This document shows, piece after piece, positions 83 through 22,759 of a DNA stretch of 37,636 nt. The notes beneath the pieces are model-generated. The model was not told where the DNA came from. It made no database searches and saw only the letters and a list, made by a program, of their open reading frames with translations. The stretch's first letter is position 1. Every line of letters begins with the position of its first letter. The DNA comes from a virus, in IMG/VR virus record IMGVR_UViG_3300023202_000158, positions 1-37,636 of that record. The stretch is one strand, 5' to 3'. The position numbers were made by a program, and so were the translations under genes.

Positions 83-772
83 CTACACGAACCCCAGATC
101 GCCGGCCAGGTTCAACGCCACCCGGCGGAGCACCCTGGTTCTGACGGCCGCCGGGTTCCCGAACTTCTGCTGCACGACCGGGGCGAAGAACGGGCGCGCC
201 GGGATGCGGATCACGAGGACCGCGCCCACGCTGAACCCGCCCCGGCTCACACCGACCACCGACACCCTCGAGCCCACCCGGGAGCCACCCGCACCGCTCG
301 GGCCGGGCGGCATCCCAGCCTTCGCGAGCATGGCGAAGAAGAACTGCTGCATCTTCCGGGTGACCGTGATGCGGATCGTGGCACCGTTCTCATGGACGAG
401 CGCGATGCTCACCATCGACTTGCCGTCGCGGGTGCGGGCGTTGCGCGAGATCCCCACGAAGACCGCACCGCTCGACCGAATGATGCGGATGGAGTTCCGC
501 ATGTTCCCCGTGTCGATCAGCGCCTTCGACGAGGAGCTTCCGCGCTTGGCCTTGCGCAGCGCGATCGTCAGCCTGCTCAGGGGTCGGAACCGGCGGCCAC
601 CCGGCGCCTGCTGCCGGATGCCCTGGACGACGTCCCTGCGGAACTCCTGGGCCTCCTGGAGAACCGCACGGTCGACGGCGCGGTTCAGCCGGCGCCCACC
701 GCGGAAGGAGTTGAGGATCCGCTGCGCCTTGCGCCAGTCGCCCTCGAGCGAGATGCGGTGTCGCATCACCAC
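83..772 (-). CDS. Tail completion / virion morphogenesis protein (Mu gpG / HK97 gp10-like)
   Basis: The 229-residue basic protein has the architecture of phage virion-morphogenesis proteins that close the tail-proximal end of the head-tail joint. An N-terminal helical segment is followed by a PLSxLTIALRKAKRG stretch, LIDTGNMRNSI (the conserved L-x-TG-x-LxxSI element), a VHENGATI motif and a C-terminal PARPFF motif. All of these are hallmarks of the gpG/gp10 superfamily. The frame opens with GTG GTG ATG (772, 769, 766), and the AGGTGA ribosome binding site could serve either the first GTG or the ATG. It lies 4 nt after the upstream connector-like gene, so the two are probably co-translated. 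Family assignment is fairly secure; exact neck position is inferred from order. Confidence 0.75.
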   Translation of the reverse strand: MVMRHRISLEGDWRKAQRILNSFRGGRRLNRAVDRAVLQEAQEFRRDVVQGIRQQAPGGRRFRPLSRLTIALRKAKRGSSSSKALIDTGNMRNSIRIIRSSGAVFVGISRNARTRDGKSMVSIALVHENGATIRITVTRKMQQFFFAMLAKAGMPPGPSGAGGSRVGSRVSVVGVSRGGFSVGAVLVIRIPARPFFAPVVQQKFGNPAAVRTRVLRRVALNLAGDLGFV

Positions 773-776
773 AACA

Positions 777-1307
777 TCACCTCGCCGCGCTCAGGTCTCT
801 GGGCTCGAACGTGCAGACCAGCAAGTTCCGGTGAGCGTTCTGCACCGCGAGCCCGAAGCTCCGTGGCATGGCCTCCACGCAGTAGAGCCCCGGCGGGGTC
901 CGGATGGTCTGCACCAGATCCCCACCGGGCCAGCGCCGGATCGCCTGGAGCCGATCGGTGACCCGGATGAGCGCCTCCCCCGTGACCCCGTCCACGAGGC
1001 CCTCGAGCTCGAGGACCTGGAAGTGGAACACCAGGATGACCTGACCCGTGGGCGATCGACCCGTCGCCAGCATCTCGAGCTGCTCGAAGCTCTCGTCCTC
1101 GATCTGCGCCCGCGTGGTGATGACCGACTCCTCCCGCGGCTTGCTCGGTGGGGCCGTGGTCCCTGACGGCACCAGGGCCGGCTCCTTGAAGTCGTCGTCG
1201 TAGCCACTGGTGAGCGGGCCGGCACCGTCCGGGTCCGCGTTCGTGGCGGTCGTGTCGAGCTGGGCGATCTCGACCTGAAACGGGAAGATGAGCCGGCCAC
1301 GGGGCAT
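777..1307 (-). CDS. Conserved structural protein, probable head-tail connector component
   Basis: This is a 176-residue protein starting MPRGRLIFPF. The ATG at 1307 is preferred because residues upstream in the same frame are low-complexity and unlike a protein. The body has an acidic Asp/Pro-rich loop (about residues 15-60) and then a compact beta-rich half containing a FHFQVLELEGLVD stretch. I do not recognise a named family. Its position immediately before the gpG-like tail completion gene, and after the adaptor once the inserted cassette is ignored, is where a stopper or neck protein usually sits. It follows a candidate promoter at 1427-1454, so it may start the downstream tail operon. 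Confidence 0.55.
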   Translation of the reverse strand: MPRGRLIFPFQVEIAQLDTTATNADPDGAGPLTSGYDDDFKEPALVPSGTTAPPSKPREESVITTRAQIEDESFEQLEMLATGRSPTGQVILVFHFQVLELEGLVDGVTGEALIRVTDRLQAIRRWPGGDLVQTIRTPPGLYCVEAMPRSFGLAVQNAHRNLLVCTFEPRDLSAAR

Positions 1308-1426
1308 GCCGGCAGGGTAGCAGCCCACGACGGGTCGCGCGCGCGCCCAGGTGCCGCCCCGTCGCGCGCAGGGCGCCTCGGATGGCCTGGCGTAGCGCCA
1401 GCCCCCCTCGGGCGGCTTACAGGACC

Positions 1427-1454
1427 GATATGGCGCGTCTGGGCGGCGTGTCAC
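1427..1454 (-). promoter_or_regulatory. Candidate promoter restarting late transcription
   Basis: On the minus strand GTGACA (1454-1449) is followed after 16 nt by CATATC (1432-1427). The -10 type resembles the TTGACA-N18-CATAC promoters near 27850 and 29550. It sits just downstream of the terminator at 1463-1504 and upstream of the structural genes at 1307-83, where transcription would need to restart. A small hairpin (CTGGCG-TAG-CGCCAG, 1387-1401) lies in the putative leader. Confidence 0.4.
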
Positions 1455-1462
1455 TGGTGCCA

Positions 1463-1504
1463 CAAAAAGTCGGCCCGGTCAGCGGGGGGGGGCTGACCGG
1501 GCCG
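1463..1504 (-). terminator. Intrinsic (rho-independent) terminator
   Basis: A perfect 13-bp stem (1492-1504 pairing with 1471-1483, CGGCCCGGTCAGC arm) encloses an 8-nt loop of C residues on the transcript. It is followed on the minus strand by ACTTTTTG, i.e. a U5 tract. This is the clearest terminator in the window and closes the cassette that ends with the pyrimidine-dimer glycosylase gene. The loop and the 3' flank are runs of eight G on the plus strand. Confidence 0.85.
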
Positions 1505-4220: not shown

Positions 4221-5303
4221 CTACACCGACCGCATGGTCGGGGGCCGACGGAAGCCCATGAGGATCGTGTCGATCTCGGGGTCACCGGTGAACCGACCGA
4301 CCCCGCGCCGGCCCAACGTGGTCCCGCTTGCCGCGGCCCACTTGATCGTCTGGTCCCTGGTCTTCAGCTCGGTGATGCGCCAGGCGTTCTGATACGTGCT
4401 CACGCCGTCCAGGTCGGCGAGCTTTGCGATGTTGCGGATCGTGAGGAGCTTGCACGCCCAGCAGATCATGAGCGGCACGCGCCCCTCGCTCGACCCGTCG
4501 TGCTCGCGATAACCGAACAGCCCGTCGATGCGGATGTTCTGCTGGCCCTCGGGGAACTTCTTGAGCCCGATCTTGAACAGCAGGTCGTCATCGAGGGGCT
4601 GGCGGATCTCGATGCGCGGGTTGTCCGCGTCGTTCGGGTACCGGAGGTTCTCCGAGATGTGCCGGTTGTAGACGATGATGTCGGAGCTCAGAAACGCGAC
4701 GTCGTCGATGAACACGTCGCTGATGGCGACGATCGGCTGCTCCAGATGCATGGACGGCTGACCGCTGCCGTCGAGAGTGAAGCTCAGGGTGCGGTTGTCG
4801 AAGAAGCGGCCGGTGAACTGGTCGATCATCCGGCTCGCGAGCGCGATGCGTTCCTGGAGGAAGGCGTCGTCCGCCATCGCCACCGTGACGCCCTCCGCGC
4901 GCAGATCGGCGATCGAGCAGTAGCCCTCGCCGAACGACGCCGTGACCGACGCCAGGACCTCGAACTCCTCCTTCGCCGTCTGCTCGTTGGACGTCGCGGT
5001 GAGCTTGAAGAACCACCGGATCTCGTGCGTGCCGATTGGTTCCGAGATCGGCACCGTCCACTTCGCGACGTAGCGGCCCGTCGAGATCTTGTCGCCGGTC
5101 GGACAGAGCGTGGTGACGTCTACCGGCTCGCGATCACCTGGGGTCGCGGGGAACACCTGCACCGGGGTCCCCGGGGTGGTCACCTTCTCGAAGATCTGGA
5201 ACTCGAGGACCTCGACGTCGGTCAGCACCCCCGACACGGCGGTGAAGATGTCCAGGACCGGGTTCGTGCAGTCGGAGCTCTGTTCGCGGGCAAGGGCGGG
5301 CAT
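4221..5303 (-). CDS. Head-tail adaptor (gp6/gp15-like) with extra N-terminal beta domain
   Basis: This is a 360-residue protein. Residues 1-125 look like an immunoglobulin-like beta sandwich (TNPVLDIFTAVSG; KWTVPISEPIGTHEIRWFFKLTAT). Residues from about 135 on match the helical head-tail connector family (SIADLRAEGV, then RIALASRMIDQFTGRFFDNRT, LEQPIVAISDVFIDD). In HK97 gp6 or SPP1 gp15 this protein forms the ring that docks onto the portal, and those are only about 100-150 residues long, so the N-terminal domain and long C-terminal part are additions. ATG 5303 overlaps the stop of the preceding gene (TGATG), fixing the start. Assignment is good for the central domain, inferred for the extra domain. 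Confidence 0.7.
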   Translation of the reverse strand: MPALAREQSSDCTNPVLDIFTAVSGVLTDVEVLEFQIFEKVTTPGTPVQVFPATPGDREPVDVTTLCPTGDKISTGRYVAKWTVPISEPIGTHEIRWFFKLTATSNEQTAKEEFEVLASVTASFGEGYCSIADLRAEGVTVAMADDAFLQERIALASRMIDQFTGRFFDNRTLSFTLDGSGQPSMHLEQPIVAISDVFIDDVAFLSSDIIVYNRHISENLRYPNDADNPRIEIRQPLDDDLLFKIGLKKFPEGQQNIRIDGLFGYREHDGSSEGRVPLMICWACKLLTIRNIAKLADLDGVSTYQNAWRITELKTRDQTIKWAAASGTTLGRRGVGRFTGDPEIDTILMGFRRPPTMRSV

Positions 5304-5605
5304 CAGCAGTCCTCGATGAAGAAGGCCTGGACGACCGGGAACGAAACGCCGGGCGTCGCCTCCTCGTACTGTACCTGCAACGTGTCCGAGCCGAAGGGCG
5401 GGTCGGGGCAGGTCCAAAGGAAGCTCGTGTTCGCCGGCCCGACCTCCTCGAAGTCACCGTCGCCCGCGCCGGGTGCGCTGGCCCGCTTGAGCCGCACCCC
5501 GTTGAGGTGGACCTCGAGCGTTCCCGTGGCGTAGCTGCCCGTCAGCGTGAAGGTCGTCGCGGCGCCGTCCACCTGGCCCGTGATGTCCTCGGTGACGGTC
5601 GCCAT
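5303..5605 (-). CDS. Small beta-rich virion protein
   Basis: The 100-residue product contains VDGAATTFTLTG, then LEVHLNGVRLKR and a C-terminal SDTLQVQYEEA. This V-x-LNG-x-x-L pattern recurs in appendage proteins of phages, and also appears near the C-terminus of the 528-residue protein at 9760-11346 (VEVYLNGELLR). A surface-exposed decoration or connector accessory is therefore likely. It is coupled by TGATG to the adaptor gene and starts two bases after the phospholipase gene ends. Confidence 0.5.
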   Translation of the reverse strand: MATVTEDITGQVDGAATTFTLTGSYATGTLEVHLNGVRLKRASAPGAGDGDFEEVGPANTSFLWTCPDPPFGSDTLQVQYEEATPGVSFPVVQAFFIEDC

Positions 5606-5606
5606 C

Positions 5607-6476
5607 TCAGAACACCGCCTGCGCGTCCGCGCGCCCCTGGGCCATGAGGTCGGCGCTCTGGTCGGGCTCGAACTTGGCGGCGTCCCCCGGCAGCGGTTGT
5701 GCCGGGCGCACGACCCGCATCGTCACGATGCGCTTGCCGACCCCCTTGGGATGGCGCGCCTCGACGGCCGCGTTGTAGAGCTCCACGCGGTCGAGGTCCG
5801 CCTCGACGATCTCGCGGAACATGACGTCGAAGACGCGGAGCCCAGTGTTCCAGACCCGGTCGGGCTCGGGCTCCCAGGGTTTGAGGTTCGGGCTCTGGCA
5901 CAGCACCAGGTCCACCTCGGTCGCCCCGAGCCGGATCGCCTGGCGGATCGGGCTCACGTCTCGGATGCCCCCGTCGTAGAGGACCTGCCCGGTCGGCGTG
6001 CGGATGTTCGGGTGCAGGATCGGAGTCGCGCTACTGCCGAGCATCCCACGGACGAGCTGGGGCTTCGGCATGTCCTCGCCGTAGCACCGGAACTCCCCGG
6101 AGCAGATGTCGACGGCGACCGCCCGGTAGACGCGCCCGGACGCGCGCATCCGGTCCACGTCCAGGAGCTCGTTCAGCAGTCGCTCGAGGGGCTCGAATCC
6201 GTGCGTGCTGGGCTGCCACAGCAGCGACGCCGGCTGGAGGAACCGCGCGTCCATCACCTGCTCGGTGCGCAGGTCCGACCATAGCTCGGTCAGCATCGCG
6301 ACCGCGTCGGCTTCTTGGCCGAGCGGGGCCATCGCGACGGCTGCACCGTTGATGCACCCGACGCTCACGCCGGTGATGATCTGGTGCCGTCGACCCAGGT
6401 TGCCGAGGAGGTGCTGGAGCGCGCCCACCTGGTACGCGCCCAGCCCCCCTCCACCGCTGAGCACGAGCGCCCGCAT
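5607..6476 (-). CDS. Patatin-like phospholipase
   Basis: The 289-residue protein carries the full patatin signature. There is a glycine-rich oxyanion loop SGGGGLGAYQVGAL (7-20), the nucleophile elbow GVSVG with Ser38, an SSATPILHP segment (148-156), and the DGG motif with catalytic Asp168 (YDGGIRDVSP). Such enzymes are Ser-Asp dyad lipid acyl hydrolases acting on phospholipids. No signal peptide or membrane segment is present, so export would be by lysis or by virion incorporation. The ATG at 6476 overlaps the stop of the upstream fibre-like gene (TGATG), and the next structural gene starts two bases after the stop, so it is embedded in the structural operon. Family call is secure; a role in entry, lysis or membrane remodelling is inference. 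Confidence 0.9.
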   Translation of the reverse strand: MRALVLSGGGGLGAYQVGALQHLLGNLGRRHQIITGVSVGCINGAAVAMAPLGQEADAVAMLTELWSDLRTEQVMDARFLQPASLLWQPSTHGFEPLERLLNELLDVDRMRASGRVYRAVAVDICSGEFRCYGEDMPKPQLVRGMLGSSATPILHPNIRTPTGQVLYDGGIRDVSPIRQAIRLGATEVDLVLCQSPNLKPWEPEPDRVWNTGLRVFDVMFREIVEADLDRVELYNAAVEARHPKGVGKRIVTMRVVRPAQPLPGDAAKFEPDQSADLMAQGRADAQAVF

Positions 6477-7627
6477 CACTCGTCCACGCTGACGGCGTAG
6501 AAGGTCGCGCTCGCGTGGCCGCCGCCGAACCCGGCACCGGCAACCGCGCTGTCCGCTTCCACCTTGTCGATCACGATCTGGCCGGACCCGTTGTAGTCGA
6601 CATGGCCGAGGTAGAGCAGCATGCGCACCCCGAGCGACGACGGGAGATCCTTCACCGCGTTGTAGACGAGCGGGGCGTGCTCGAGCTGCTGGCCGCTCGT
6701 CCCGCGCCACGCGGGCGAGCCGCCGACGGGACCCTGCTTCGGGAACGAACCCCGTGCCTCCAGCAGGATCGCCCAGAAGCTCTGATAGAAGGTGCGCTCG
6801 TAGACGACCCAGCCGCCCTGCCCGTCCGGCACCTGCACCTCTTGGACGATCTCGCAGTTGAAGTCCGCGTCGGCCGACCACTGCACCTCGGCCATCTCGA
6901 TCTCGATGCGCTTGCCGGCCTTGGGTGCGAGGACGAGCGCGCTGCCCTCCGCGTAGTGGAAGGTGGCTTGCGGTGTCTGGGCCGGAGCGGACTGGAACGT
7001 CACCACGCCGTTGAGATGGTCGATGACGTAGTCACCGCCCAGCGACCAGTCCGACGCGCGTCGCGGACGAGGTTCCTGCACCACACCACCGACCCGCACC
7101 TGCGGGAGGTAGCCCCACTGGTCGCCGACCGCCGCCTTGCCCTCCTCTACGACGCGCAGGGCGTGGTGGAGCTTCGGGTGCAGAGGGTTGATCCAGTTCT
7201 TCTTCGAGCTCACCCAGGTCACACCGTCGGCCGACGGGTTGGTCAGAACCTCCACGACGCGCACCGACTCCGAATACCACGTGGTCGGGTCCGAGAAGTC
7301 GTGGGTCGCCTGGATGAACTCGCTGCCCTTACGGCCCACGACCTGGACCCGGTTCTCCTGGCCGTCGAGCACGACCTTCGGGATGCCGTTCGAGCTGACC
7401 GGGTTCGGTAGCGCGACGCCCGAGTGGGCGGCGACCACGGCGTCGAGCACCGACTGCTCCGCTCCCGAGAGCGCCGCCTTGAACGCGACGGTGACGTCGT
7501 CGGCGCTGACGGTGATCCCGTCGAGCGCCACCGCGATCGTGGACTGGCGGACCTCCAGTGTCAGGCGGTCGACCGCCACAGCGTTGGCCGGGAAGTCGCC
7601 GGTGACGGAGTAGTTGTAATCGACCAT
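6476..7627 (-). CDS. Tail or appendage structural protein
   Basis: The 383-residue protein opens with YSVTGDFPANAVAVDRL followed by TVAFKAALSGAEQSVLDAVV. This kind of N-terminus is seen on phage appendage proteins that bind the virion. The middle is beta-rich with many aromatic residues (WVSSKKNWINP, GDQWGYLPQV), and the C-terminus reads LLYLGHVDYNGSGQIVIDKVE, suggestive of a carbohydrate-binding or jelly-roll fold. It lies between the H-x-H fibre gene and the phospholipase, directly coupled to both. No specific receptor-binding family is recognised. Confidence 0.55.
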   Translation of the reverse strand: MVDYNYSVTGDFPANAVAVDRLTLEVRQSTIAVALDGITVSADDVTVAFKAALSGAEQSVLDAVVAAHSGVALPNPVSSNGIPKVVLDGQENRVQVVGRKGSEFIQATHDFSDPTTWYSESVRVVEVLTNPSADGVTWVSSKKNWINPLHPKLHHALRVVEEGKAAVGDQWGYLPQVRVGGVVQEPRPRRASDWSLGGDYVIDHLNGVVTFQSAPAQTPQATFHYAEGSALVLAPKAGKRIEIEMAEVQWSADADFNCEIVQEVQVPDGQGGWVVYERTFYQSFWAILLEARGSFPKQGPVGGSPAWRGTSGQQLEHAPLVYNAVKDLPSSLGVRMLLYLGHVDYNGSGQIVIDKVEADSAVAGAGFGGGHASATFYAVSVDE

Positions 7628-8779
7628 CTAGGACACCCTCCAGATCGTGATGCGGGCGTTCTTGATGAAGACGGTCCCGCCGAGGCTTCGGTACCGGATG
7701 ATGAACGTCCGCGCTCCCGAGAACGTGACTTGCTTGAACCCGCTCTCGGTCTGGAACTTGTCGGTCCCTCGGTGCTCGGGTTGCGCCTGGTCCAACGCGG
7801 TGCCGCCGGTGGAGTCCCAAAGCTGGACTTCCATCTCGTTGTAGTTGTTCGCGCACTTGCAGCACCACGAGACGAGGTAGGTCCCCGACGGCAGGCCGCT
7901 TACCGTGAGCGTCGCCTTCGTCTGGAAGCTGCCCGAGCTGGTCGACACCTCCGCATCAGACTCGACGTAGTCGTACTCGGTGCCGAAGACGAGCGCGTCG
8001 AGCTTCGCCTTGTCCGCGGCGCTTAGGAAACCGGCGGCGCTGGGCGTGGCCGCCGAGTGCAGCGTTCCGCCGCCCTGGTTGCCGTGGCTGTGGACGTGGT
8101 CGGAGCGTGCGAGCGACGCCGAGGACCCTTCCTGATTCGAGCTACCAACCGCTGCCGGCGTAGCCGTGTCGATGTCGTGCTTGTGGTCGGAACGGGCTGC
8201 CTGCGAAGAGACCCCAGCGTTCGCCGTGGCCTTCGTGACGTTGGTCGGCGCCGACGCGGTCAGCGGTGTGGCCGTCGCGTTCGGTGCGACCCCGTCGATC
8301 TTCGACTTGTCCGACGACGACATGAACCCGTTATCGGACGGCGTCGCGACCGCGTGGTGAGTCGGCTCGCTCTGCGTACCATGGCTGTGAACGTGATCGG
8401 AGCGCGCAAGCGAGTTTGCCGACCCGGCGGCGTTGGACGTCCCGACAGCAGACGGAGCCGCGACGGGGACCTGATGCTTGTGATCGGCGCGCGCTGCATC
8501 ACCAGACGACCCGACGTTCGGAGCGGTCGGAGTGGCGTCCTCTGGGGCAGACCCGGTCAGGGTGACCGACGCCCCAGCAAACGGCGCCCAGACGACCGAT
8601 GGAGTGATCTGGACGATGTAGAAGAGGAGGTCGGTGTCCTGATCCCGAGCCACCTTCAACAGGTCGTCCGGATCAACGAACCCGGTGGCGGCGAGGCGCG
8701 TCGCAGCATCGGCGTACTCGAACGCGACGGGTGTATGAATCCCATCGACTGGCCTCTGCTTGCTGTGCGCTCCGCCCAT
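7628..8779 (-). CDS. Tail fibre with duplicated H-x-H metal-binding repeats
   Basis: The 383-residue fibre begins with DGIHTPVAFEYADAATRLAATGF, a common virion-attachment start of fibre proteins. Residues 96-162 and 195-262 are two copies of one unit, each containing DHKH, then LARSDHVHSHG, then ATPSxxGFxSxxDKxKxD. H-x-H pairs in trimeric fibres such as T4 gp37 coordinate iron ions along the shaft. Here six H-x-H motifs are visible. The C-terminal 110 residues (from about 275) form a beta-rich domain with a WCCKC cluster and ARTFIIRYRSLGG, probably the receptor-binding tip. It is separated by one base from the gene before and adjacent to the one after. Confidence 0.8.
   Translation of the reverse strand: MGGAHSKQRPVDGIHTPVAFEYADAATRLAATGFVDPDDLLKVARDQDTDLLFYIVQITPSVVWAPFAGASVTLTGSAPEDATPTAPNVGSSGDAARADHKHQVPVAAPSAVGTSNAAGSANSLARSDHVHSHGTQSEPTHHAVATPSDNGFMSSSDKSKIDGVAPNATATPLTASAPTNVTKATANAGVSSQAARSDHKHDIDTATPAAVGSSNQEGSSASLARSDHVHSHGNQGGGTLHSAATPSAAGFLSAADKAKLDALVFGTEYDYVESDAEVSTSSGSFQTKATLTVSGLPSGTYLVSWCCKCANNYNEMEVQLWDSTGGTALDQAQPEHRGTDKFQTESGFKQVTFSGARTFIIRYRSLGGTVFIKNARITIWRVS
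7994..8494 (-). repeat. Two tandem fibre repeat units (297-nt period)
   Basis: Units at 8494-8291 and 8197-7994 encode the duplicated H-x-H shaft segments of the fibre. The offset is 99 codons. Divergence between the copies shows the duplication is not recent. Confidence 0.7.
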
Positions 8780-8780
8780 C

Positions 8781-9050: not shown

Positions 9051-9731
9051 CTAACCCTTCCCGGCCGACTTCGCGCGCTTCTTCGTGGTCTTCTTGGCCG
9101 CCTTCTTGGCCGTCTTCTTCTTGCGCGCGGCCTTGCGCCGACCGTCGAGCTTGGAGCTCCCCGGGCGCTCACCAGGGCGCCGCTGTCGCCCGCGGGGACC
9201 GTCGGAGGTGTCTTCGTCCCCCGAGTCATCGGCGGCTTCCTGGGCCGCCTCCAGCTCCGAGAGCTCGAGCTGCTTCGTTCGGACCACCGCGGACGTGTGA
9301 TGGCGCTGCACGAGCTCGAGCGCCGAGCGCGCCGCCGCCACCTTCCCGCTGGCGACCAGCATCGCGCTGTCCGACTTGTTCGCGAGGTTCAGCAGCGCCT
9401 CGATGGCGCGCGTCACGTAGAGCTTGGCGTAGCGCGCCGCGACGAGCTCCGGATCGGTCTCCTTGAGCTCCTCGGCGAGCTTGCCCTGCTCCCGGTCCTT
9501 GTCGATATGCTCGTGCAGCTTCCGCAGGGCCTCGGACGCTCCACGGAGCGCCTGGCGGCCACCCCTGGCCTGCTCGACCTCCGCCTGTGCCTTCTCGAGG
9601 TGCGCGTCGAAGCTCTCGCCGAGCTCCCCCGTGACGCGCGCCTTCACGGAGAAGTCCGACCGCGACGACAGCTTGGTCGCCGCGGCCGCCTTCTTGGTGC
9701 CCGCGGACCCGGGCTCGGTGTGTTCGCTCAT
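9051..9731 (-). CDS. Helical virion protein with histone-like lysine-rich tail
   Basis: The 226-residue protein has a long helical body (residues 30-150; KARVTGELGESFDAHLEKAQAEVEQ region) with coiled-coil character, then an acidic patch (EAADDSGDEDTSD). It ends in about 30 residues of KK-A/T repeats (RKKKTAKKAAKKTTKKRAK) like the tails of histone H1 or bacterial AlgP/Hc1 proteins. Such tails bind DNA or polyanions. In a structural operon it may bind packaged DNA inside the head or tether to surface polysaccharide; neither is shown. ATG 9731 has GAGGGA upstream. Confidence 0.55.
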   Translation of the reverse strand: MSEHTEPGSAGTKKAAAATKLSSRSDFSVKARVTGELGESFDAHLEKAQAEVEQARGGRQALRGASEALRKLHEHIDKDREQGKLAEELKETDPELVAARYAKLYVTRAIEALLNLANKSDSAMLVASGKVAAARSALELVQRHHTSAVVRTKQLELSELEAAQEAADDSGDEDTSDGPRGRQRRPGERPGSSKLDGRRKAARKKKTAKKAAKKTTKKRAKSAGKG

Positions 9732-9759
9732 GCTTCCCTCATGAGCCAGCGCCGAGGGG

Positions 9760-11346
9760 CTACTGGCCGTTGACGATCACCGTGAGCTGGTCGGGCTTGG
9801 AGCCCGTGCCCTTGAGCTGGAACTGGAAGGCCAGATCGCCGTCCGCCGGCGTGCCGCCGGGGTAGACGTCCTCGCCGCCGCCATCGTTCGCCGCGTTCCG
9901 CAGCAGCTCGCCGTTGAGGTAGACCTCGACGTCGTCCACGAAGGTGACCTGGTCGAACGGGGCGAGGTCGACGTCCGTGTTGCTGTGCGGGGTGCCCGGG
10001 CCGTTGACGTCGGTGTCGGCGGAGACGTTCGCCGTGAGCACCGCCTGGACCTTCGTGCGCTGATCGTTCGCGAACGCCTGGTTGATGGCGTTGAGCAGCG
10101 ACACCTCGCCGAAGTTCGTCTCGAAGGTGTCCCACTCGGTCGGCGTGTCCGAGAGCTTGATGCCGTCGGTCTGCGCCCAGGTCGACGTCGCCTGGTTCAC
10201 GTCGTCGAGGAACAGCTCGGCCGCCGCGAGGAGCCGCAGGTCGCCCGCGGTGGACTCGATGACGCCGTCGTTCTCCCCGACATCGATCGGCCGGGTCTTG
10301 CCCGTCGCGACGCTGATGCCGGCGTCGAAGTCGACGTCGGGAGCGTCCACGTCGAAGACGTCGGTCGCTGCCGAGATCTCGACCTCGCTGGTGCCCCCGG
10401 CGCTGCCCTCGACGATGCGGAAGAGGATGGCCTCCAGGTCGTCCCGGATCTGCCACTCGAGCCCCGCTCCCTCGAGGTCGAGAACCGCGTTCGTGGTCTG
10501 GTCGACCGGGGTCGCGCCCTGGTTATCGTAGGCGACCTGACGAGTGACCGTGGCGCTGCTCGGCACGTCGACCTTGGAGTCGTTGAGCAGGTCCGCCTCG
10601 TTGAGGTCCTCGAACGCGATGCGCTCGGTGAACGTCAGGTTGACGGTCTGGTTCTCGATGTCGCTGACCGGCACAGCCTCGAGGTCGTCGCCCGTCGCGT
10701 TGAGACGCACGAACGACACCTGGAGCCGGTTCGGGGTGGTAGCGGTGGCGGTGTGGCCGTCGGCCGCGTTCTCGCTCTGGAGCAGCGCGTAGATCGTCCG
10801 GCTGGAGCTGGCGAGCTCGTCACGGCTGGAGCCGTCGACCACCCGCACGAGGTTGTCGGGACCGATGGCGGTCGGACCACCGACCTCGTCGAGAGCGTGG
10901 TTGCCGAAGGTGCCGCCGTGCGCCGCCGCCACCGTGCCGCGGGTCTGCACGGCACCGACCGCGATGGTCGTGTTCGCCGGGAGCTCGCCGCCGCCGAGGA
11001 TCGCGAAGTTGTCGCCCGCGCCGACCGTGATGTCCACGAGCTGCACGTCGCGACGCAGGAACCGCTTCCGAGCCAGGACGTGCAGGTCCAGGTTCAGATC
11101 GTCGACGCCGCGCTGGGCCTCACCCTCGCCGGTGAACGTGCCGGGCGTTGCGAGATCGTCGTACCAGTTGCCGGCCTGCACATCCTTGAGCAGCGAGAGA
11201 ATGCTGCGGAGGTTGTTGAGGTCATCGGCGATCGTGGACGCCCCGGACTCCATTGTGGCGCCGGGTGTGACCCCGTCGTTGAAGCCGATGATCGAGTCCT
11301 GGGTCGACCCGACCTGAGCGTCCTGTCGGATGAACGTGCGTCCCAT
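9760..11346 (-). CDS. Large beta-rich virion appendage protein
   Basis: The 528-residue acidic protein has an N-terminal helical part (DDLNNLRSILSLLKDV, residues 41-56) typical of appendage proteins that trimerise. Long beta-rich and Ala/Asp-rich repeats follow, and it ends with VEVYLNGELLRNAA and FQFQLKGTGSKPDQLTVIVNG. The C-terminal module resembles the 100-residue protein at 5303-5605. A head fibre, whisker or tail appendage is likely. Start ATG 11346 has an AGAAGG-type site. It is the first gene after the hairpin at 11461-11500, so it may form its own transcript. No enzymatic motif seen. Confidence 0.5.
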   Translation of the reverse strand: MGRTFIRQDAQVGSTQDSIIGFNDGVTPGATMESGASTIADDLNNLRSILSLLKDVQAGNWYDDLATPGTFTGEGEAQRGVDDLNLDLHVLARKRFLRRDVQLVDITVGAGDNFAILGGGELPANTTIAVGAVQTRGTVAAAHGGTFGNHALDEVGGPTAIGPDNLVRVVDGSSRDELASSSRTIYALLQSENAADGHTATATTPNRLQVSFVRLNATGDDLEAVPVSDIENQTVNLTFTERIAFEDLNEADLLNDSKVDVPSSATVTRQVAYDNQGATPVDQTTNAVLDLEGAGLEWQIRDDLEAILFRIVEGSAGGTSEVEISAATDVFDVDAPDVDFDAGISVATGKTRPIDVGENDGVIESTAGDLRLLAAAELFLDDVNQATSTWAQTDGIKLSDTPTEWDTFETNFGEVSLLNAINQAFANDQRTKVQAVLTANVSADTDVNGPGTPHSNTDVDLAPFDQVTFVDDVEVYLNGELLRNAANDGGGEDVYPGGTPADGDLAFQFQLKGTGSKPDQLTVIVNGQ

Positions 11347-12885: not shown

Positions 12886-13818
12886 TCAGACCGCCCGGAT
12901 GCCCGTGGTCTTCACGACCGCCGGCTCGTGCGCGAACTTGAAGTCCACGCGGGCCGTCGCGACGATGATGAACACGCCCGCGCTGACGTCGCGGTCGGTG
13001 TCGATGCGGATGCTCCGCCAGACCCCGAACAGCATGTTCGTCGGGTCGGTGAACAGCATGTCCGTCTCGTTGCTCCCGCCGCCCAGGTCGGTCGGGAAGA
13101 CCGGAACCTCGAGCACGGGGATGCCGTTGAACGGACGGGTCTCGGGCTGCACGACGTGCTCGTCACCGAGCCCGGTCGCACGGTCACCGATCGACTCGTG
13201 GTAGTCGATCGCCGCCTCGTCCGCCGTCATGAAGCGGAGGCTCCGCTTGTCGCGGCGGAACTCGCTGGGCATCGTCTTGAGCGTGTCCTTGAGCACGGGA
13301 CGCGCCAGGGTCGCCCCGCCCGCGAGGACCGTGTTCGTGACCGCCTGGACCCGGAGGCCGTCGAGGGTCTTGAGCAGGTCGTCGGCGGACGTGACGTCGC
13401 CGTTGAACGCGAGGTCCTCCAGGTCGAGCGAGATCCGCTCCGCCATCGTCTGGCGAACCGTGCTCTCGAAGTTGCCCCGCTCGATGGAGTCCTCGAGCGC
13501 CTCGAAGCTGATGCGCGTCTCGGCCTTCACGAGCTGGGCGTCGAGCTCGACCTTGGAGGTGTCCGGGGTCGTCCGCTGCGCGGTCGGCAGCGCGACGGCC
13601 TCGGTGCCCTTGCGGAGCGCGCGGGACCCGTAACGGATCTTCTCCCGCAGCTCCTTCGGGCTGTTCATGTCGACGCGCGTCATCAGCGGCAAGATGACCG
13701 ACTGGTCGATCGCGAGCTGGATGAAACGATCCGCCTGTGCGGGCTCGAGCAGGCCACCCGGAGCGAGGTTGGCCAGCAGGAAGTCCGCCTTCTGAATCAG
13801 GGTTCGGTTGTCCTTCAT
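12886..13818 (-). CDS. Major capsid protein (HK97 fold)
   Basis: The 310-residue protein matches the HK97-fold capsid family. An N-terminal arm (KADFLLANLAPGGLLEPAQA) leads to the E-loop region with TSKVELDAQLVKAETRISFEALED, then the spine helix (NFESTVRQTMAERISLDLEDLAFNGD, given in parts) and the P-domain/A-domain core with PVLKDTLKTMPSEFR. It ends with SIRIDTDRDVSAGVFIIVATARVDFKF, a common capsid C-terminus. ATG 13818 is chosen because CAGGAGA lies just upstream; an in-frame ATG 22 codons earlier lacks one. It follows the scaffold-like gene and precedes the decoration gene, the usual order. Confidence 0.88.
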   Translation of the reverse strand: MKDNRTLIQKADFLLANLAPGGLLEPAQADRFIQLAIDQSVILPLMTRVDMNSPKELREKIRYGSRALRKGTEAVALPTAQRTTPDTSKVELDAQLVKAETRISFEALEDSIERGNFESTVRQTMAERISLDLEDLAFNGDVTSADDLLKTLDGLRVQAVTNTVLAGGATLARPVLKDTLKTMPSEFRRDKRSLRFMTADEAAIDYHESIGDRATGLGDEHVVQPETRPFNGIPVLEVPVFPTDLGGGSNETDMLFTDPTNMLFGVWRSIRIDTDRDVSAGVFIIVATARVDFKFAHEPAVVKTTGIRAV

Positions 13819-13864
13819 GGCTGTCTCCTGAGAGAGGGTTTTCGGGGTGTTCCTGTGGCCCTCG

Positions 13865-15208
13865 TTACATGATCCAGGGACCACCGCGCCGCTTGCGCGG
13901 CTGGTGATCCCCGTTCCCGTTGGTGCCCTCGGGGGGCTCCGGGCTCGATGCCGGCGGCGCGGGCCGCTCGGCGAGCTTCGCGACCTGCGTCTGGAGCGCG
14001 TCGAGGCGCTTCATCACGTCGCCGATGACCTCGTCGTCCTGCGCGCCGCCGGGCGTGTCGTCGTCGGGGCCGGTGCCGACGTTGCCGAGGTCGCCGCCCT
14101 CACCCTCGTTCGGGTTGCGCGGCTGGCCCGCCACGGCGCGCTTCTTCTGGTTCTTCTTGTCGCTCGGCTCGACCTCGTCGAGGAGCGCCATGATCTGCTG
14201 GAAGCCGCCCTGGAGGGTCTTGAGCGCCTCCTTGAGCTTCTTGCGCCGAGCGGCGCTCATCTTTGCCCCGCGCTTGCCGATCTCGGCGTACGCCTCGGAG
14301 ATCGTCGCGACGTTCTTCATGAGGCCGTCGTCACCCTCGGGCTGACCGTCACCGCCGCCGGAGGTCTTGTCCTCCATGTCGCCACCCTCGGTGGCGTCCG
14401 CGTCGCCGTCGCCGTCACCCGCGTCACCACCGGCGAGCTCCATGAGTCGCTCGGCGAGCTGGACCATCGTGGTCATCATGTCCTCGGGCATGTCGGCGCC
14501 CTCTTCGAGCTGCGCCGCCATCTGCGCCATGACCATCGCGACCTCGGCGACCTCCTGGAGGGCCATCGCGAGGGCCTGGTTCTTCGCGACCGGCTTGACC
14601 AGCGCGAGCGCCGCCTTCGCGATCCCACCGAGCGCACCGGCGTCGACCGTCTCCGACTTGGAGAGCGTGAACGCCACGTCGCTGAGCGCACGGAGCGCCT
14701 TGGCGTGGTCGCTCAGGCCGTCGGGCTGCGGCGTCCGGTACTTGACCAGGGAGCCGCGGAGTGTCTCGCTCGCGGTGAGCATACCGAGCGCGAGCTCGGA
14801 CGGGAGGGCGTAGTCGTCGCCGGGGGCGTCGTCGCTCTCCGTCGCGGCCTTCACCAGCTCGGTGACGGCCACCATCTTCTCGAGGTTCTGGGTCAGGACC
14901 CCGAGCAGCTCGTCCTTCACGCCCTTGGCGAGCACGAGCTCGGGCTCGCTCCCGTCGGCGTTCGGCTGCGGCTGGTCGCCCTGGCCCTGCGGGTTCGTCT
15001 CACCGGGCATGTCGCCTCCTGCGTTCTTCACCATAATGAATCGCCGCGTGTTCGCGGCACGGTCCACCACCGACACCTCTTCGACGAGGATGTCTCGCAG
15101 ACGGAACTTCGCTTCCTCCGGGGAGAGCCCCATCGTTACGAGCGCCCGCTCGAGAGCGTCTGTTTCAGTCGTGGACATGGTTACGGCGAGAAATATAGCG
15201 GATCTCAT
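13865..15208 (-). CDS. Scaffold-like protein downstream of prohead protease
   Basis: The 447-residue, very acidic, Ala/Met/Gln/Gly-rich protein is predicted mostly helical and ends in a basic tail (QPRKRRGGPWIM). Its N-terminus has VEEVSVVDRAANTRRFIMVK, the motif that begins protease or scaffold modules in this phage type. Low-complexity linkers (about 255-295 and 355-390) separate helical blocks, one of which (MSAARRKKLKEALKTLQGGF) is basic. Position between protease and major capsid gene fits a scaffold that is cleaved during maturation. ATG 15208 overlaps the protease stop (ATGA); ATG 15178 is an alternative start. Confidence 0.65.
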   Translation of the reverse strand: MRSAIFLAVTMSTTETDALERALVTMGLSPEEAKFRLRDILVEEVSVVDRAANTRRFIMVKNAGGDMPGETNPQGQGDQPQPNADGSEPELVLAKGVKDELLGVLTQNLEKMVAVTELVKAATESDDAPGDDYALPSELALGMLTASETLRGSLVKYRTPQPDGLSDHAKALRALSDVAFTLSKSETVDAGALGGIAKAALALVKPVAKNQALAMALQEVAEVAMVMAQMAAQLEEGADMPEDMMTTMVQLAERLMELAGGDAGDGDGDADATEGGDMEDKTSGGGDGQPEGDDGLMKNVATISEAYAEIGKRGAKMSAARRKKLKEALKTLQGGFQQIMALLDEVEPSDKKNQKKRAVAGQPRNPNEGEGGDLGNVGTGPDDDTPGGAQDDEVIGDVMKRLDALQTQVAKLAERPAPPASSPEPPEGTNGNGDHQPRKRRGGPWIM

Positions 15209-18006
15209 CCATCTGGCGATAGGGGCTCACGAACAGCGGTACCACCGATGGAGAAGCCCGTGAAATCGCCACGCTTCACAGCCTGCCAGAGATCGTCGTC
15301 TTTTACCCGCACCGCCAGGAACCACGTGCCGACGGGGAACGTCTCGCCGCCGTGCTCCTCCTCGACCTTGCTGACGTACGACTCGAGCACGACCAGACCG
15401 TCGACGGCCTCGCCCGAGTGCATGATCTTCATGCCGCCGCCGAAGAACTCGAGGAAGGAGTGCGCCGCGTCGCGCACGGTCGCCTCGTCGTAGATGTCGC
15501 CCTGCGCGTCGACCTCGTTCGGGACCAGGACCACGCCGAAGACGAACCGCTCCTCCTGGCCGAGCGCGTCCTTCTGGATCTGCGCCGAGCGGTTGATGAG
15601 GCGCACCGAGCGCGATCGCTTCTCGGCCTGCTCCAGGCGCAGTACCTCGGCGAAGATGACGTCGTCCTCGTCGAGCGGCTCCGTCGTCGTCAGGTCGTAG
15701 ACCTTCTCGGTCACGCGCCGGAACTCGCCGTGCTCGTCCAAGGCGACGTTGCCACCGTGGATCCACCTGGCGTCGGCGAGCGCGTCGCGCACGCGCGCCG
15801 CCTCCGTGCCGCTGTCAGTCTCCCAGAACCGCAGGTCGGGGGGTACGACCGCTGCCAGGCTGGCGGGGAGCAGAGGGGCACCTGGCGCCACCGTGGGGCC
15901 GTCCTTCTCCAGCACCGCCGGCACGAGCTCCTCGAAGCGACCGCGCCACTGGTTGCCGCCCTCGGGACCGAACCGCTGGTCGTCGCCCAGGCGCTTGAAG
16001 ACCAGGCGGCCGGCGAACCGCGGGTCCTGGCTGACGAACAGCTCCACCGTGTCCGCGGTGCAGACCCCGAGCTCCACGCTCGGTCGGGCGGCGTCGATCA
16101 CGAGGTCGCCGTCGACCACCTCCTCGAGGGAACCACCCTTCTCCACGCGAGGGATCGCGTAGACGCGCGACGGTGCCACGAGAGGTCGGTTGAAGTCGGA
16201 GCCCAGGACGTCGAACGTCTTGGCGATCTCGCGCGCCGTCTCCACGTCCGTGGCGCGCGCGCCGTCCTTGCCGAGCGCCATGCGCCAGCTCAGCACGTCG
16301 TCGCCGATCGCGATCCGAAGATCGCCGTGCAACGTCCCCCTCTCGAAGCGGTACTGCATGCGGGCGTCGAGCCGACCCTGCGCGGTCTTCACGAGCTCCA
16401 TGAGCCCGTCGTCATCGATCGGCTTGGGCTCCACCGTGGCGCGCTCGGTGGTCGGGGTCAGGTGGAGCTCGAACAGCTTCACGTGAGGCTGGTGAACACC
16501 GGTCGGGGCGCGCCGGAACTTCACCGACTTCACCACCCGCTTCGGCAACGCGCGCCGGACGTGGAACTTCACGACGTCGAACAGCTCCAGGTCGACCGGC
16601 CCGGTGACCACGATCTCGAACGGTGCGTCGTGCGTCCCCTTGCCGACGAGGTAGACCGCCGGCAGCGCGCGGCCCCGCAGCACCTCGGATAAGCGCGACA
16701 CGATCGCGTCGCGCTTCACCGTCTTCTCCTCGTCCTGGTCGCGGCGCGACGACAGGCGCTCTCGGGCGGCACGGGTGAGCTCGTCGTCGCGCCGGTACGC
16801 CTTGCCCCGCCGCTCGTACTCCCGCATGACCACGGCGCATGCCCGGACGATCTGGTCGCGGCTGATCCCCTTCTCCTCGGCGCGACCGAAGACCGAGTGC
16901 AGCTCCGCGTCGAGCGCGTCGAGCTGCGTGTCGCTGAGCTCGCGGAGCTTGCCCTGCTCCGGGGCGGAGATGAAGTCGGTCGCGGACTTGTCCACCGCCT
17001 GGGTGAACAGCGCGTCCATGTCGAGCTGCCGTTCGTCGCGCTTCGCCAGGTCGGATCCGAAGTCGACGTGCCGAGCGAACCGCCGTCCACCCGGCGGGCG
17101 CCCGAGCGCGATCGGTGCCTCGAACACGACCTCAAGCTCGAGCGGCAGGTAGAAGATCCGGGGCTCGCCCGCGAACTCCTTGACCACGTCCTCGACGATC
17201 GACTGGCGCAGGGCGGGCTCGAGCTCGTCCAGGGATGCCACCTCGATCGGCTCCTTCTGGCGAACCACGCCCCAGACGTGCGCCGTGGAGAAGCCACCCG
17301 CGATCTCGTTGACGAGCGCCTGCTGCTTGCCGACCCGCGTCGTCCGGTTGCGCACCGAGAGCAGGCCCGCCGGCTCACCATCTGTCAGCCGTCGGATCAT
17401 CTCGCGTGGATCGCGCACCTTGAGCGCAGGCAGTCGGCCGGTCGGCACCCCCTTGCGGAGCTTGAACGGCTCGGGCTTGACCAGGCGACGGATCGCCACG
17501 ACCGCGCTCTCGGCCTTGCGCGCCTCGGAGCGCGCGTTGCGGACGTGCGCCTTGCAGGTGGGCACGAACGCTTTGCCGCCGTGGACGATGGTGGCGTGGT
17601 CCGCGGACGCACCACAGAACGCGCAGGCGTGGTCGCGGTCCAGGACGTCGCGCTTCATCGACTGGAAGAAACCGAAGAGGTGCAGGTGCGCCCCGTCGAC
17701 CTTGGTCTTGCCGTTCTCGCGCTCGAGGGCGTGCAGGTGGATACCGACCTCGGGCGCACCGCTGGGGAGGAACTTCTGGGCCTTGTCCTCGTCGCCGAAC
17801 CGCTCGATCTGCCGCAGCCGCTCCTCGGCCTCCTCGCGCGTCTCGAAGCACCCGAAGTTCCGGCCCGACTCCTCGCCGATCACGCAGTATTCACCGGCCG
17901 CGTTCTGCCGGATGAACTTGGACGCCGACACCGGCGCGGACGACTGCACCGTCGCCCGGGCTCGGGCGATGATGTCGTCCAGTCGCTTGGAGATGGGCTC
18001 TCGCAT
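15205..18006 (-). CDS. Giant XkdF-type prohead protease fusion
   Basis: This 933-residue protein ends (823-933) in an XkdF-like serine protease domain, with FGVVLVPNEVDAQGD, the His in KIMHSGE (863) and the Ser in GFSIGG (919). Ahead of it are several unexplained parts. Residues 31-70 form a small domain (NAAGEYCVIGEESG, REEAEERLRQIERFG). A HLHALERENGKTK stretch at 90-102 leads into HLHLF. A zinc site near 128-154 has CAFC and TCKAH. Central alpha/beta regions include LHGDLRIAIGDDVLSWRM around 575-595, faintly like the 3'-phosphoesterase domain of LigD. Typical prohead proteases have about 200-300 residues. It follows the 116-residue gene and overlaps the scaffold gene by ATGA. Protease call is strong, other domains tentative. 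Confidence 0.8.
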   Translation of the reverse strand: MREPISKRLDDIIARARATVQSSAPVSASKFIRQNAAGEYCVIGEESGRNFGCFETREEAEERLRQIERFGDEDKAQKFLPSGAPEVGIHLHALERENGKTKVDGAHLHLFGFFQSMKRDVLDRDHACAFCGASADHATIVHGGKAFVPTCKAHVRNARSEARKAESAVVAIRRLVKPEPFKLRKGVPTGRLPALKVRDPREMIRRLTDGEPAGLLSVRNRTTRVGKQQALVNEIAGGFSTAHVWGVVRQKEPIEVASLDELEPALRQSIVEDVVKEFAGEPRIFYLPLELEVVFEAPIALGRPPGGRRFARHVDFGSDLAKRDERQLDMDALFTQAVDKSATDFISAPEQGKLRELSDTQLDALDAELHSVFGRAEEKGISRDQIVRACAVVMREYERRGKAYRRDDELTRAARERLSSRRDQDEEKTVKRDAIVSRLSEVLRGRALPAVYLVGKGTHDAPFEIVVTGPVDLELFDVVKFHVRRALPKRVVKSVKFRRAPTGVHQPHVKLFELHLTPTTERATVEPKPIDDDGLMELVKTAQGRLDARMQYRFERGTLHGDLRIAIGDDVLSWRMALGKDGARATDVETAREIAKTFDVLGSDFNRPLVAPSRVYAIPRVEKGGSLEEVVDGDLVIDAARPSVELGVCTADTVELFVSQDPRFAGRLVFKRLGDDQRFGPEGGNQWRGRFEELVPAVLEKDGPTVAPGAPLLPASLAAVVPPDLRFWETDSGTEAARVRDALADARWIHGGNVALDEHGEFRRVTEKVYDLTTTEPLDEDDVIFAEVLRLEQAEKRSRSVRLINRSAQIQKDALGQEERFVFGVVLVPNEVDAQGDIYDEATVRDAAHSFLEFFGGGMKIMHSGEAVDGLVVLESYVSKVEEEHGGETFPVGTWFLAVRVKDDDLWQAVKRGDFTGFSIGGTAVREPLSPDG

Positions 18007-18460: not shown

Positions 18461-19777
18461 TCAGAGGTCGGGCACCGTGGTGCAGCGGCAGAGCCCGTGC
18501 GCCGGCGGCATCTCCGACCCGCCTGCGTTCTCCGGGCGCCGGAAGGTCTGGAAGCTCCCGCGCTCATCGACCCGACCCATCGCCGACTCGGTCACGCGCG
18601 CGACCCGCTCCCCGAGTTCACCGCCGCGTGGCTGGACGTGGATGTCGCCCCCCATGCGTCGGCCCTCGTCGTCGGTCGTACCGCCGACGACCCGGTACCA
18701 GGGGAAGAGGTTGATCGCCTCCTCGGGGTCGTCGATCTCGCGAGCGCGTTCGAACCGAGCGAGGTTGTCACCAACCGAGAACCGCTGCCCGTGGAGGAAC
18801 CTACACACCTCGCAGGTGCGCTCGTCCAGGACCGCCTCCCAGATGTAGAACCCGGCACCCGCGTCCCGGTAGCTGAGCATCTGCCCATAGCTCCGCGCGC
18901 GGGAAACGGCCGAGCTCGAGACGACCCGGTAATACCACTCGCTCCGCCCCGACACCCGGCCTCGGAATGCGGTGCTGAGCCGCTGGGCGATCACCTCGTC
19001 GCCGACACCCTGGGTCGTGCCACGCGCGATGATGTCGCGAGCCATCGCGTCGAACTGGTCGCTCCGCCGGCCGAACTCGTCGGTGATGAAGACCATCGCG
19101 TCACCACCGAGCGCGCGCGCCGTGGCCGCCTCGGGTGCAAGGAAGGTCGTGCGCACCCCAGGCAGGTTCGCCAGCACGCGCGACTGACGGGCGACGTTCA
19201 GCGTCGCCGCCTCGAGCCGCCTGGTCATCGCGCGCCGGGTCGCACCGCTCGGCACGTTGGCGATCATCCCTCCGAGCCCCCCGAGCACCCGGTCGATCTG
19301 GGCGGCGTTCATGGTGGGCCAGTTCTGCGCGCCGATCCGGTCGAGTGCGCGCCGGGCGACGCGACGCTCGGCGGCACTGCTGTCGCCGAGGAGCCCGTTC
19401 CAGAGCTGCTCCACGAGGTCCGCGAACCCCGATCGGGTCAACGGGTTGTCCACCTTGAAGACGTCGATCCGGTCCTTGACGATCGGCCAGAGGTAGGCGT
19501 TGGCGCCCGTGCGGATCACGCCCTGGAGGATGAGCGCGGACCCGTCCCCCTTCGCCGCCAGGATGCGCGCGCGCTGCTCCACCTCTTCGGGCGTGCGTGC
19601 GCGCTCTAGGCGGCCCGTAGACGGGCTGAACGCCGCCAGCGCGAGGTGACCGCCGCCGCACGTGCTCCTCACGCCCTGGGCGGCTAGCACGGCGCGCGGG
19701 TCGGCCACGATGCGCCACGGTGGACCGACCACCGCCAGCTCGCTCTCCAGGGCGGTCCCGTCGCGGGGTAGCTCCAC
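18461..19777 (-). CDS. Minor head protein, Mu gpF-like
   Basis: The 438-residue protein shows the C-terminal head-morphogenesis motif of Mu gpF / SPP1 gp7. AVSRARSYGQMLSYRDAG is followed by YIWEAVLDERTCEVCRFLHGQ and finally PPAHGLCRCTTV, i.e. the Cys-x-x-Cys and H-x-x-CRC zinc-like residues typical of PF04233. The N-terminal 200 residues are helical and less conserved. Family members bind the portal, aid assembly and may be ejected with DNA. Translation begins at GTG 19777, three bases after the preceding stop. Confidence 0.85.
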   Translation of the reverse strand: MELPRDGTALESELAVVGPPWRIVADPRAVLAAQGVRSTCGGGHLALAAFSPSTGRLERARTPEEVEQRARILAAKGDGSALILQGVIRTGANAYLWPIVKDRIDVFKVDNPLTRSGFADLVEQLWNGLLGDSSAAERRVARRALDRIGAQNWPTMNAAQIDRVLGGLGGMIANVPSGATRRAMTRRLEAATLNVARQSRVLANLPGVRTTFLAPEAATARALGGDAMVFITDEFGRRSDQFDAMARDIIARGTTQGVGDEVIAQRLSTAFRGRVSGRSEWYYRVVSSSAVSRARSYGQMLSYRDAGAGFYIWEAVLDERTCEVCRFLHGQRFSVGDNLARFERAREIDDPEEAINLFPWYRVVGGTTDDEGRRMGGDIHVQPRGGELGERVARVTESAMGRVDERGSFQTFRRPENAGGSEMPPAHGLCRCTTVPDL

Positions 19778-20464: not shown

Positions 20465-20877
20465 CCGTTCCGCACGCGCGCCAGGTTGCCGCCGGTCGCG
20501 CGCATTACGACGTCGGTCGCACCGCCAAGGGTGACCGTGGTCACCCGCACGGCGGCGTTGTGCCCATCGATCTCGACCTCGAACGCCTCACCGTCGTTGA
20601 TCGTCTGCGAGCTCACGACCTCGAGCCAGCGGTAGCCGGCCGGGTTCGCCGGCTCCGGGACCTGGAGCAGGACATCGACCACGACGCTCGTGCCCGCCGT
20701 CTGCTCCGGAGTCGCGTCTCGGAACGTCGGGAACAGGCGGACGCTGTCCCACTCGCGTCCGTCGAGGATGTGGACGTCGGACGGATCCTCGTCGTCCGGG
20801 GTCCAGGTGCCGGCGTCCGACGCGGCCTTCGGGGGGCGGACGTCGGTGGCGGCGTCAGAACTGTAGAGCCGTCGCAT
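20461..20877 (-). CDS. Beta-rich virion protein near portal
   Basis: The 138-residue protein has a flexible acidic start and then a beta-sandwich-like stretch (TSVVVDVLLQVPEP, GYRWLEVVSSQTIND, FEVEIDGHNAAVRVTTVTLG). Its style resembles the decoration-type protein at 12497-12820. The ATG lies inside the last 23 bases of the portal gene with AGGAG just upstream. The last codons coincide with a 16-bp genome repeat (20478-20493). Function unknown; a portal- or head-surface protein is likely. Confidence 0.5.
   Translation of the reverse strand: MRRLYSSDAATDVRPPKAASDAGTWTPDDEDPSDVHILDGREWDSVRLFPTFRDATPEQTAGTSVVVDVLLQVPEPANPAGYRWLEVVSSQTINDGEAFEVEIDGHNAAVRVTTVTLGGATDVVMRATGGNLARVRNG
20478..20493 (+). 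repeat. Short copy of the GCGCCAGGTTGCCGCC repeat, inside a gene
   Basis: Identical for 16 bases to the repeats at 11433 and 29661-29676. Here it encodes the GGNLAR residues near the C-terminus of the 138-residue protein, so it may be coincidence. Confidence 0.35.
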
Positions 20878-22741: not shown

Positions 22742-22759
22742 GCCGGTCACCCTATCACG

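Follow-up and report, generated by a model that had tools for sequence, protein, structure and literature searches.

A phage family of patatin-like acyl hydrolases, recurrently encoded next to a fibre-like gene, with a member in a head-to-neck operon

A patatin-like acyl hydrolase was found to be encoded inside the canonical head-to-neck late operon of an IMG/VR viral record (the window, 37,636 bases). The gene has intact catalytic motifs and is under purifying selection, its product has a patatin fold in the predicted model, and its relatives in otherwise unrelated phages recur beside homologues of the same fibre-like neighbour, g6476. Our analysis indicates a widespread, apparently undescribed phage family of a known enzyme kind, repeatedly partnered with a fibre-like gene. 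We tentatively propose that the enzyme is borne by the virion and acts on host membrane lipids.

Gene order in the window

The patatin gene, predicted in the initial annotation at 5607–6476, proved to be a real open reading frame, running from 6476 to 5607 on the minus strand and encoding 289 aa; the plus-strand reading of the same interval holds a stop. Its codon-position GC content (0.74/0.45/0.93) was typical of a coding gene in this genome. Comparison with a 66%-identical relative in contig L130 (NG86) gave a dN/dS of about 0.29/0.98 = 0.30, which indicates purifying selection on the protein. The order on the minus strand was portal, MuF-type head protein, maturation protease, capsid, several unassigned or fibre-like genes, g6476, and patatin, followed by a 100-aa gene, an adaptor, an insert (2430–4106), a phrog_14218 protein, and Neck1:

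20855..22750, minus strand: portal protein (phrog_12, E=3.4e-33)
18461..19777, minus strand: minor head/head morphogenesis (MuF-type) protein (PHROG scan)
15205..18006, minus strand: head maturation protease, C-terminal protease domain (PHROG scan)
12886..13884, minus strand: major capsid-type protein (phrog_1623, E=3.4e-85)
9760..11346, minus strand: g9760, structural-type protein; recurs in the same order upstream of patatin
9051..9731, minus strand: g9051, Lys/Ala-rich; also upstream of patatin in L071, L080, L090, L095, L099, L102, L104, L105, and L130
8781..9050, minus strand: small gene between fibre-like genes; no family match
7628..8779, minus strand: g7628, fibre-like, Gly/His-rich repeats; weak PHROG hits, including minor head protein
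6476..7627, minus strand: g6476, 383 aa, beta-rich and fibre-like; its translation is coupled to that of patatin; matched by neither Pfam nor PHROG
5607..6476, minus strand: patatin-like acyl hydrolase, 289 aa (Pfam E=1.5e-21; pLDDT 93.5; PDB fold and profile matches)
5303..5605, minus strand: g5303, 100-aa gene directly 3' of patatin; same place in L069 and L080
4221..5303, minus strand: head-tail adaptor (phrog_442, E=8.6e-13); its ATG at 5303 overlaps the g5303 stop
777..1463, minus strand: phrog_14218 protein between adaptor and neck genes (PHROG match)
83..772, minus strand: tail completion/Neck1 protein (phrog_222)

Thus, the patatin gene lies within a virion structural operon, with portal, MuF, protease, and capsid genes upstream and adaptor and neck genes downstream. 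The TGA of g6476 (6478–6476) overlaps the patatin ATG as TGATG, and the coupling with a fibre-like gene that had been claimed before was confirmed from the sequence. On the 3' side, the gap had been given as two bases and is actually one (5606), after which g5303 begins. The claimed place between a fibre-like gene and the head-tail adaptor also held, the adaptor belonging to phrog_442 and the 100-aa gene intervening. Inspection by eye agreed with the initial annotation that the patatin has no signal peptide; hydropathy revealed no transmembrane-like segment in the window patatin, and none was seen by eye in g5303. The fold search with g6476 returned no structural match at E<=0.001; therefore, it is described here only as beta-rich and fibre-like, from its context and beta content.

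Several other minus-strand genes of the window were recorded. A predicted membrane-anchored zinc metalloprotease (23084–23815; HELWHCLGLAH, of the HExxHxxGxxH type), with no PHROG match, was encoded just upstream of the portal. The products of 2430–4106 and 35932–36813 are different proteins with a common C-terminal winged-helix-like module (GKSECAxxRYAxKxVKxGxL); the former (phrog_2319) is the insert between the adaptor and neck genes and is missing in the relatives L004 and L011. A deoxyribonucleoside 5'-monophosphate phosphatase (28554–29195; phrog_318, E=2.5e-31) and a Cys-rich protein without a PHROG match (26117–26929), whose CTKGCTHCCY cluster resembles by eye those of metal-cluster-binding proteins, were also found.

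Catalytic motifs and predicted structure

The Pfam Patatin profile (PF01734) matched residues 4–181 over its full length (E=1.5e-21, 77.9 bits vs. a cut-off of 27.7). Four segments of the protein were located in the gene:

6447..6455, minus strand: Gly8-Gly9-Gly10 codons of the oxyanion-hole motif GGGGLG; G8 and G9 invariant and G10 at least 90% conserved in 70 sequences
6357..6371, minus strand: GVSVG codons with the nucleophile Ser38 (codon 6365–6363); invariant in 70 relatives
6192..6260, minus strand: loop residues 73–95, aromatic/hydrophobic, family consensus WFPFGxLxxLWKxSxYDS (alignment of relatives)
5967..5975, minus strand: DGG codons with the catalytic Asp168 (codon 5975–5973); D168 and G169 invariant in 70 relatives

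The complete set of invariant residues in the 70 relatives was L4, L6, G8, G9, G36, S38, G40, S148, D168, G169, P176, and P258. The AlphaFold2 model, built with these 70 relatives as input, had a pLDDT of 93.5 and a pTM of 0.92, and all 30 PDB chains that matched it at E<=0.001 were of patatin or PLA2 type, including CBASS lipases, AbCapV, CapE, PlpD, plant patatin, VipD, iPLA2, and ExoU; the nearest folds were CBASS lipases, CapV, CapE, and PlpD. The family profile matched PlpD best (E=7.6e-23) and AbCapV at 2.2e-15. The Ser38 column aligned with the catalytic serine of AbCapV, the residue replaced in the S58A structure 9kej, and the DGG of Asp168 aligned with the DGG of PlpD and CapV. The Ser38–Asp168 dyad, reported as complete in the initial annotation, is thus present, and structure prediction upheld the patatin assignment, the fold and the profile alignment both supporting the dyad, which is genuine as judged by sequence and profile. 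A catalytic role at lipid membranes is well supported, catalysis itself being predicted from motifs and fold; lipid is the probable substrate by analogy with the family. Loop 73–95 is a putative membrane-docking segment.

Comparison with known patatins

CBASS phospholipases CapV and CapE (PDB 8zr9, 9jeh, 9ion) share with the window protein the patatin fold, the GxSxG serine, the DG(G) aspartate, and a similar segment before the S-x-Y-x-S-x-P-L motif. Unlike them, the window patatin is encoded in a phage late operon, and it is shorter (289 aa vs. about 340–364 aa for CapV chains). Membership in CBASS CapV was rejected, the NF041079 model giving 22.2 bits vs. a curated cut-off of 200. No CD-NTase was seen among the part of the ORFs scanned in the window, itself a fragment, and the neighbours are structural.

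The likeness to CapV and CapE, the closest folds, bears on the reading of the patatin as an anti-defence, superinfection-exclusion, or effector gene, acting on membrane-based host defence or on rival phages. The CapV segment that matches loop 73–95 is similar, one neighbour of a patatin relative matches a Tad2-like anti-Thoeris domain (E=3e-19), and the accessory distribution fits such a gene. However, the CapV model scored far below its threshold, invariant catalytic residues would be superfluous in a decoy, and constant placement among structural genes is unusual, anti-defence genes usually being early. We consider this role improbable.

The best profile match, the patatin domain of PlpD from Pseudomonas aeruginosa (PDB 5fqu, 5fya), has its catalytic motifs aligned with those of the family. 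PlpD is a secreted protein with a signal peptide and an outer-membrane barrel, both of which the window patatin lacks. Protein p022 of Rhodothermus phage RM378 (NP_835609.1) had 27% identity to the L067 patatin over the full length; it is encoded beside a DNA polymerase, not structural genes. An uncultured-phage protein annotated as 'RssA' (A0A6J5LA49) resembled the model of the window patatin in fold (TM about 0.8).

Patatin-like phospholipases of megaphage Mar_Mega_1 and of LR745206 were reported as auxiliary metabolic or virulence genes, with no linkage or mechanism described, in a study that called a megaphage gene the first in phages (PMC9723777); they occur in huge phages, and they may belong to the present family. 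Patatin genes of Caudovirales were reported from an Arctic lake (PMC9469726), and patatin morons from Burkholderia prophages (PMC2920897). In the literature searched, neither this patatin family nor its link with g6476 was described, and no purified phage particle was reported to contain a patatin. The initial annotation considered lipid hydrolases rare in phage structural clusters; this view should be softened in the light of the 142 IMG/VR loci described below and the published phage patatins, although the present family is absent from PHROG (0 of the 70 members scanned had a match).

Relatives in phages and bacteria

About 110 IMG/VR contigs of 5–530 kb and 29–68% GC encoded relatives of the patatin, mostly full length. 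Single-sequence scans with the window protein (P0001) gave no match in viral or genome contigs, an alignment of nine diverse patatins showed no stretch conserved enough for searching, and only alignment-based scans succeeded, with 89 loci in IMG/VR and 142 with a broader alignment. Identity among the IMG/VR matches listed was 29–41%, mostly over the full length. A detectable TerL was carried by 17 of 50 relative records, which identifies the relatives as phages; its distance from the patatin was approximately 4 kb in the L050 contig and 2 kb in L059. PHROG models detected a portal in 6 and TerL in 17 of the 50 records and missed many huge phages; therefore, the lack of a match was not taken as the absence of a gene. 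In L043 (3676–6477), TerL was 933 aa long vs. 587 aa in an 86–88% identical relative (L046), with an intein-like insert in the middle of the protein. Tandem patatin pairs were found in L079, L086, L088, and L120, directly consecutive (8–50 nt apart) in the last three, indicating that duplication occurred in several phages.

In GTDB genomes, 4 of 79 loci reached the C-terminal part at an identity of at least 30% (L130, L131, L132, and L133). L130 (contig JAJDDX010000500.1; about 65–66% identity to the window patatin) contained tape measure and baseplate-like genes by eye and is, from its gene content, a phage contig that had been placed in a Phycisphaerae MAG. L131 is a 3-kb piece with phage-type neighbours. 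L132 and L133 come from Zixibacteria, and L132 at least has chromosomal neighbours; this pair scored 260–270 bits with the family profile vs. 140 bits for RM378 p022. The first phage match, L034 (MT837002.1, 'Bacteriophage sp.'), was dropped as a bacterial chromosome by its neighbours, which by eye were an NTP-transferase-like protein, a PTS enzyme I-like protein, and RNA/protein methyltransferases, and similar human-faecal records were left out of the evidence.

In a quick tree, one branch (SH-aLRT 90) separated 72 of 73 phage sequences, together with L131 and the two Zixibacteria sequences, from 40 bacterial patatins and the remaining phage sequence (L121); the bacterial patatins had been picked by motif, and the tree shows separation, not origin.

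Linkage with g6476 and the downstream slot

Other phages, too, were found to encode patatin homologues between fibre-like and connector genes, which answers the objection foreseen in the initial annotation that such homologues might never occur in phage structural operons. The exact window order of patatin, g5303, adaptor, phrog_14218 protein, and neck gene recurred in L069 and L080, and the order g9760–g9051–g7628–g6476–patatin in L130. In the patatin scan, a g6476 homologue lay no more than 200 nt upstream in 21 of about 88 loci, which spanned 29–68% GC. After contigs from later scans were added and clustered at 90% identity, it was found within 200 nt in 27 of 95 clusters and within 1.1 kb in 34 of 95, the latter figure being biased upward by contigs found through g6476 itself; no recurrent neighbour was seen in 23 of the 95. 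The reciprocal scan was a fairer test of linkage: at loci found by g6476 alone, a patatin followed downstream in 25 of 42 cases, 20 of them within 200 nt. The association of the two genes greatly exceeds what chance would give, and the phages concerned have little else in common. Patatin–fibre fusions, which would have been decisive for a virion location, were sought and none was genuine. The extended ORFs in L097, in L109, and in the window resulted from alternative-start read-through or short tails, and those in L123, L219, and L223 contained an internal transmembrane hairpin instead.

At g6476 loci without patatin, one of the next two genes often encoded another enzyme: a SNase (L209, L220), a C92 permuted-papain amidase (Peptidase_C92 in L239; similar by eye in L214, L220, L228, L230, and L240), an Exo_endo_phos protein (L240), or a calcineurin-type phosphoesterase (L228; similar by eye in L230). 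A small membrane protein occupied this slot in L244, L248, and L249. A further set of patatin loci had C1, a conserved beta-type gene of 116 aa, directly downstream; in L226, an 880-aa fibre-like protein (8526–11168) has C1 as its N-terminal part. Between the patatin and its neighbours, GIY-YIG and HNH homing endonucleases were repeatedly found (L081, L226, L075, and others), which marks this stretch as a hot spot of recombination.

The patatin was absent from all 24 IMG/VR loci whose capsid protein was 46–82% identical to that of the window; these loci keep the head genes, and the whole capsid-to-adaptor interval, present in 12 of them, measured 0.4 to 9 kb. The fibre-to-adaptor interval is variable, and the patatin is accessory there. 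Such an absence, together with the other enzymes and homing endonucleases at similar places, would suit moron cargo: a bacterial-type lipase that settled where insertions are tolerated, at the fibre module's end, and that contributes to the metabolism of host or phage without any tie to the virion. Against this stand the deep reciprocal linkage with one neighbour family, the translational coupling to it, the largely separate phage group in the tree, and the near lack of bacterial genes of the family, with the exception of two Zixibacteria MAGs. There is little likelihood that the gene is cargo of this kind.

Proposed function

We propose that the window protein is an active Ser–Asp patatin acyl hydrolase of a phage family, made late and coupled to a fibre-like virion protein. 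The enzyme would most likely travel with the particle, bound to the fibre or neck region through g6476, and would hydrolyze lipids of the host membrane during entry or shortly thereafter. The initial annotation had offered three roles, namely a virion enzyme acting on the host outer membrane, a lysis factor, and an effector of the host response. Virion association is favoured by the conserved linkage and coupling with a fibre-like gene, the enzyme slot, the lack of a signal peptide, and the adjoining connector genes; both incorporation into the particle and the time of action are inferred, and we regard a virion-borne patatin acting on host membrane lipids as a serious but tentative possibility, rated somewhat below even chances.

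Several observations argue against a virion enzyme. Four relatives (L123, L219, L222, and L223), each from a locus that also holds g6476, contain two strongly hydrophobic helices within loop 73–95, and the distant relative in the cultured phage RM378 adjoins a DNA polymerase gene. The 23 of 95 clusters without a recurrent neighbour, the lack of a true patatin–fibre fusion, and the lack of a structural match for g6476 also count against it. The hairpin suits a membrane protein of the producing cell better than a part of the virion. The linkage with g6476 favours a virion component, and the hairpin favours a late intracellular membrane enzyme, which would remain unpackaged and would degrade or remodel the inner membrane from the cytoplasm, aiding lysis or release. 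The hairpin lies next to the active site, the patatins of known function (CapV and PlpD) act on membranes, and the operon implies late expression. A precedent exists in phage WO, where a patatin is part of a putative lytic cassette adjoining the tail module (PMC9203015). Of the window proteins scanned, none matched a lysis PHROG; the window is a fragment, so this absence says little.

However, the window patatin lies between fibre-like and connector genes and not beside a holin: no holin-like protein adjoins it, its neighbours being the beta-rich 383-aa g6476 and the 100-aa gene. The unbiased scan of 146 neighbours listed fibre, lectin-like, head-tail adaptor, and homing-endonuclease families among the 25 most frequent and no lysis family among these 25; such scans annotate only a minority of neighbours. 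The WO patatin, although likewise encoded next to tail genes of a phage, belongs to another subfamily (MKKYILSVDGGGIRG...) with ankyrin, holin-like, and phospholipase D genes as neighbours. Its homology to the present family was rejected, since it fell outside the 20 best family-profile matches, which include RM378 and bacterial patatins. In addition, an uncontrolled lipase made together with capsid proteins would risk early lysis. We rate an unpackaged intracellular enzyme as somewhat less likely than a virion-borne one.

The proposal of a virion-borne enzyme can be widened to a modular arrangement, in which a dedicated patatin family of tailed phages, huge ones among them, would be delivered with the particle via its g6476 partner and the same slot would also take nuclease, papain-like amidase, and phosphatase-type enzymes. 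We regard this wider arrangement as rather unlikely.

Biological significance

The prevailing view is that tailed phages breach the cell envelope by means of enzymes directed at peptidoglycan and polysaccharides. A membrane-lipid hydrolase among the particle genes would mean that lipids, too, are attacked during entry or exit. The family occurs on contigs of up to 530 kb, has no PHROG, and is tied to the unannotated g6476, which provides a testable function for both proteins. If the slot downstream of g6476 does exchange enzymes, it would be a place in which new phage effectors may be sought by position alone.
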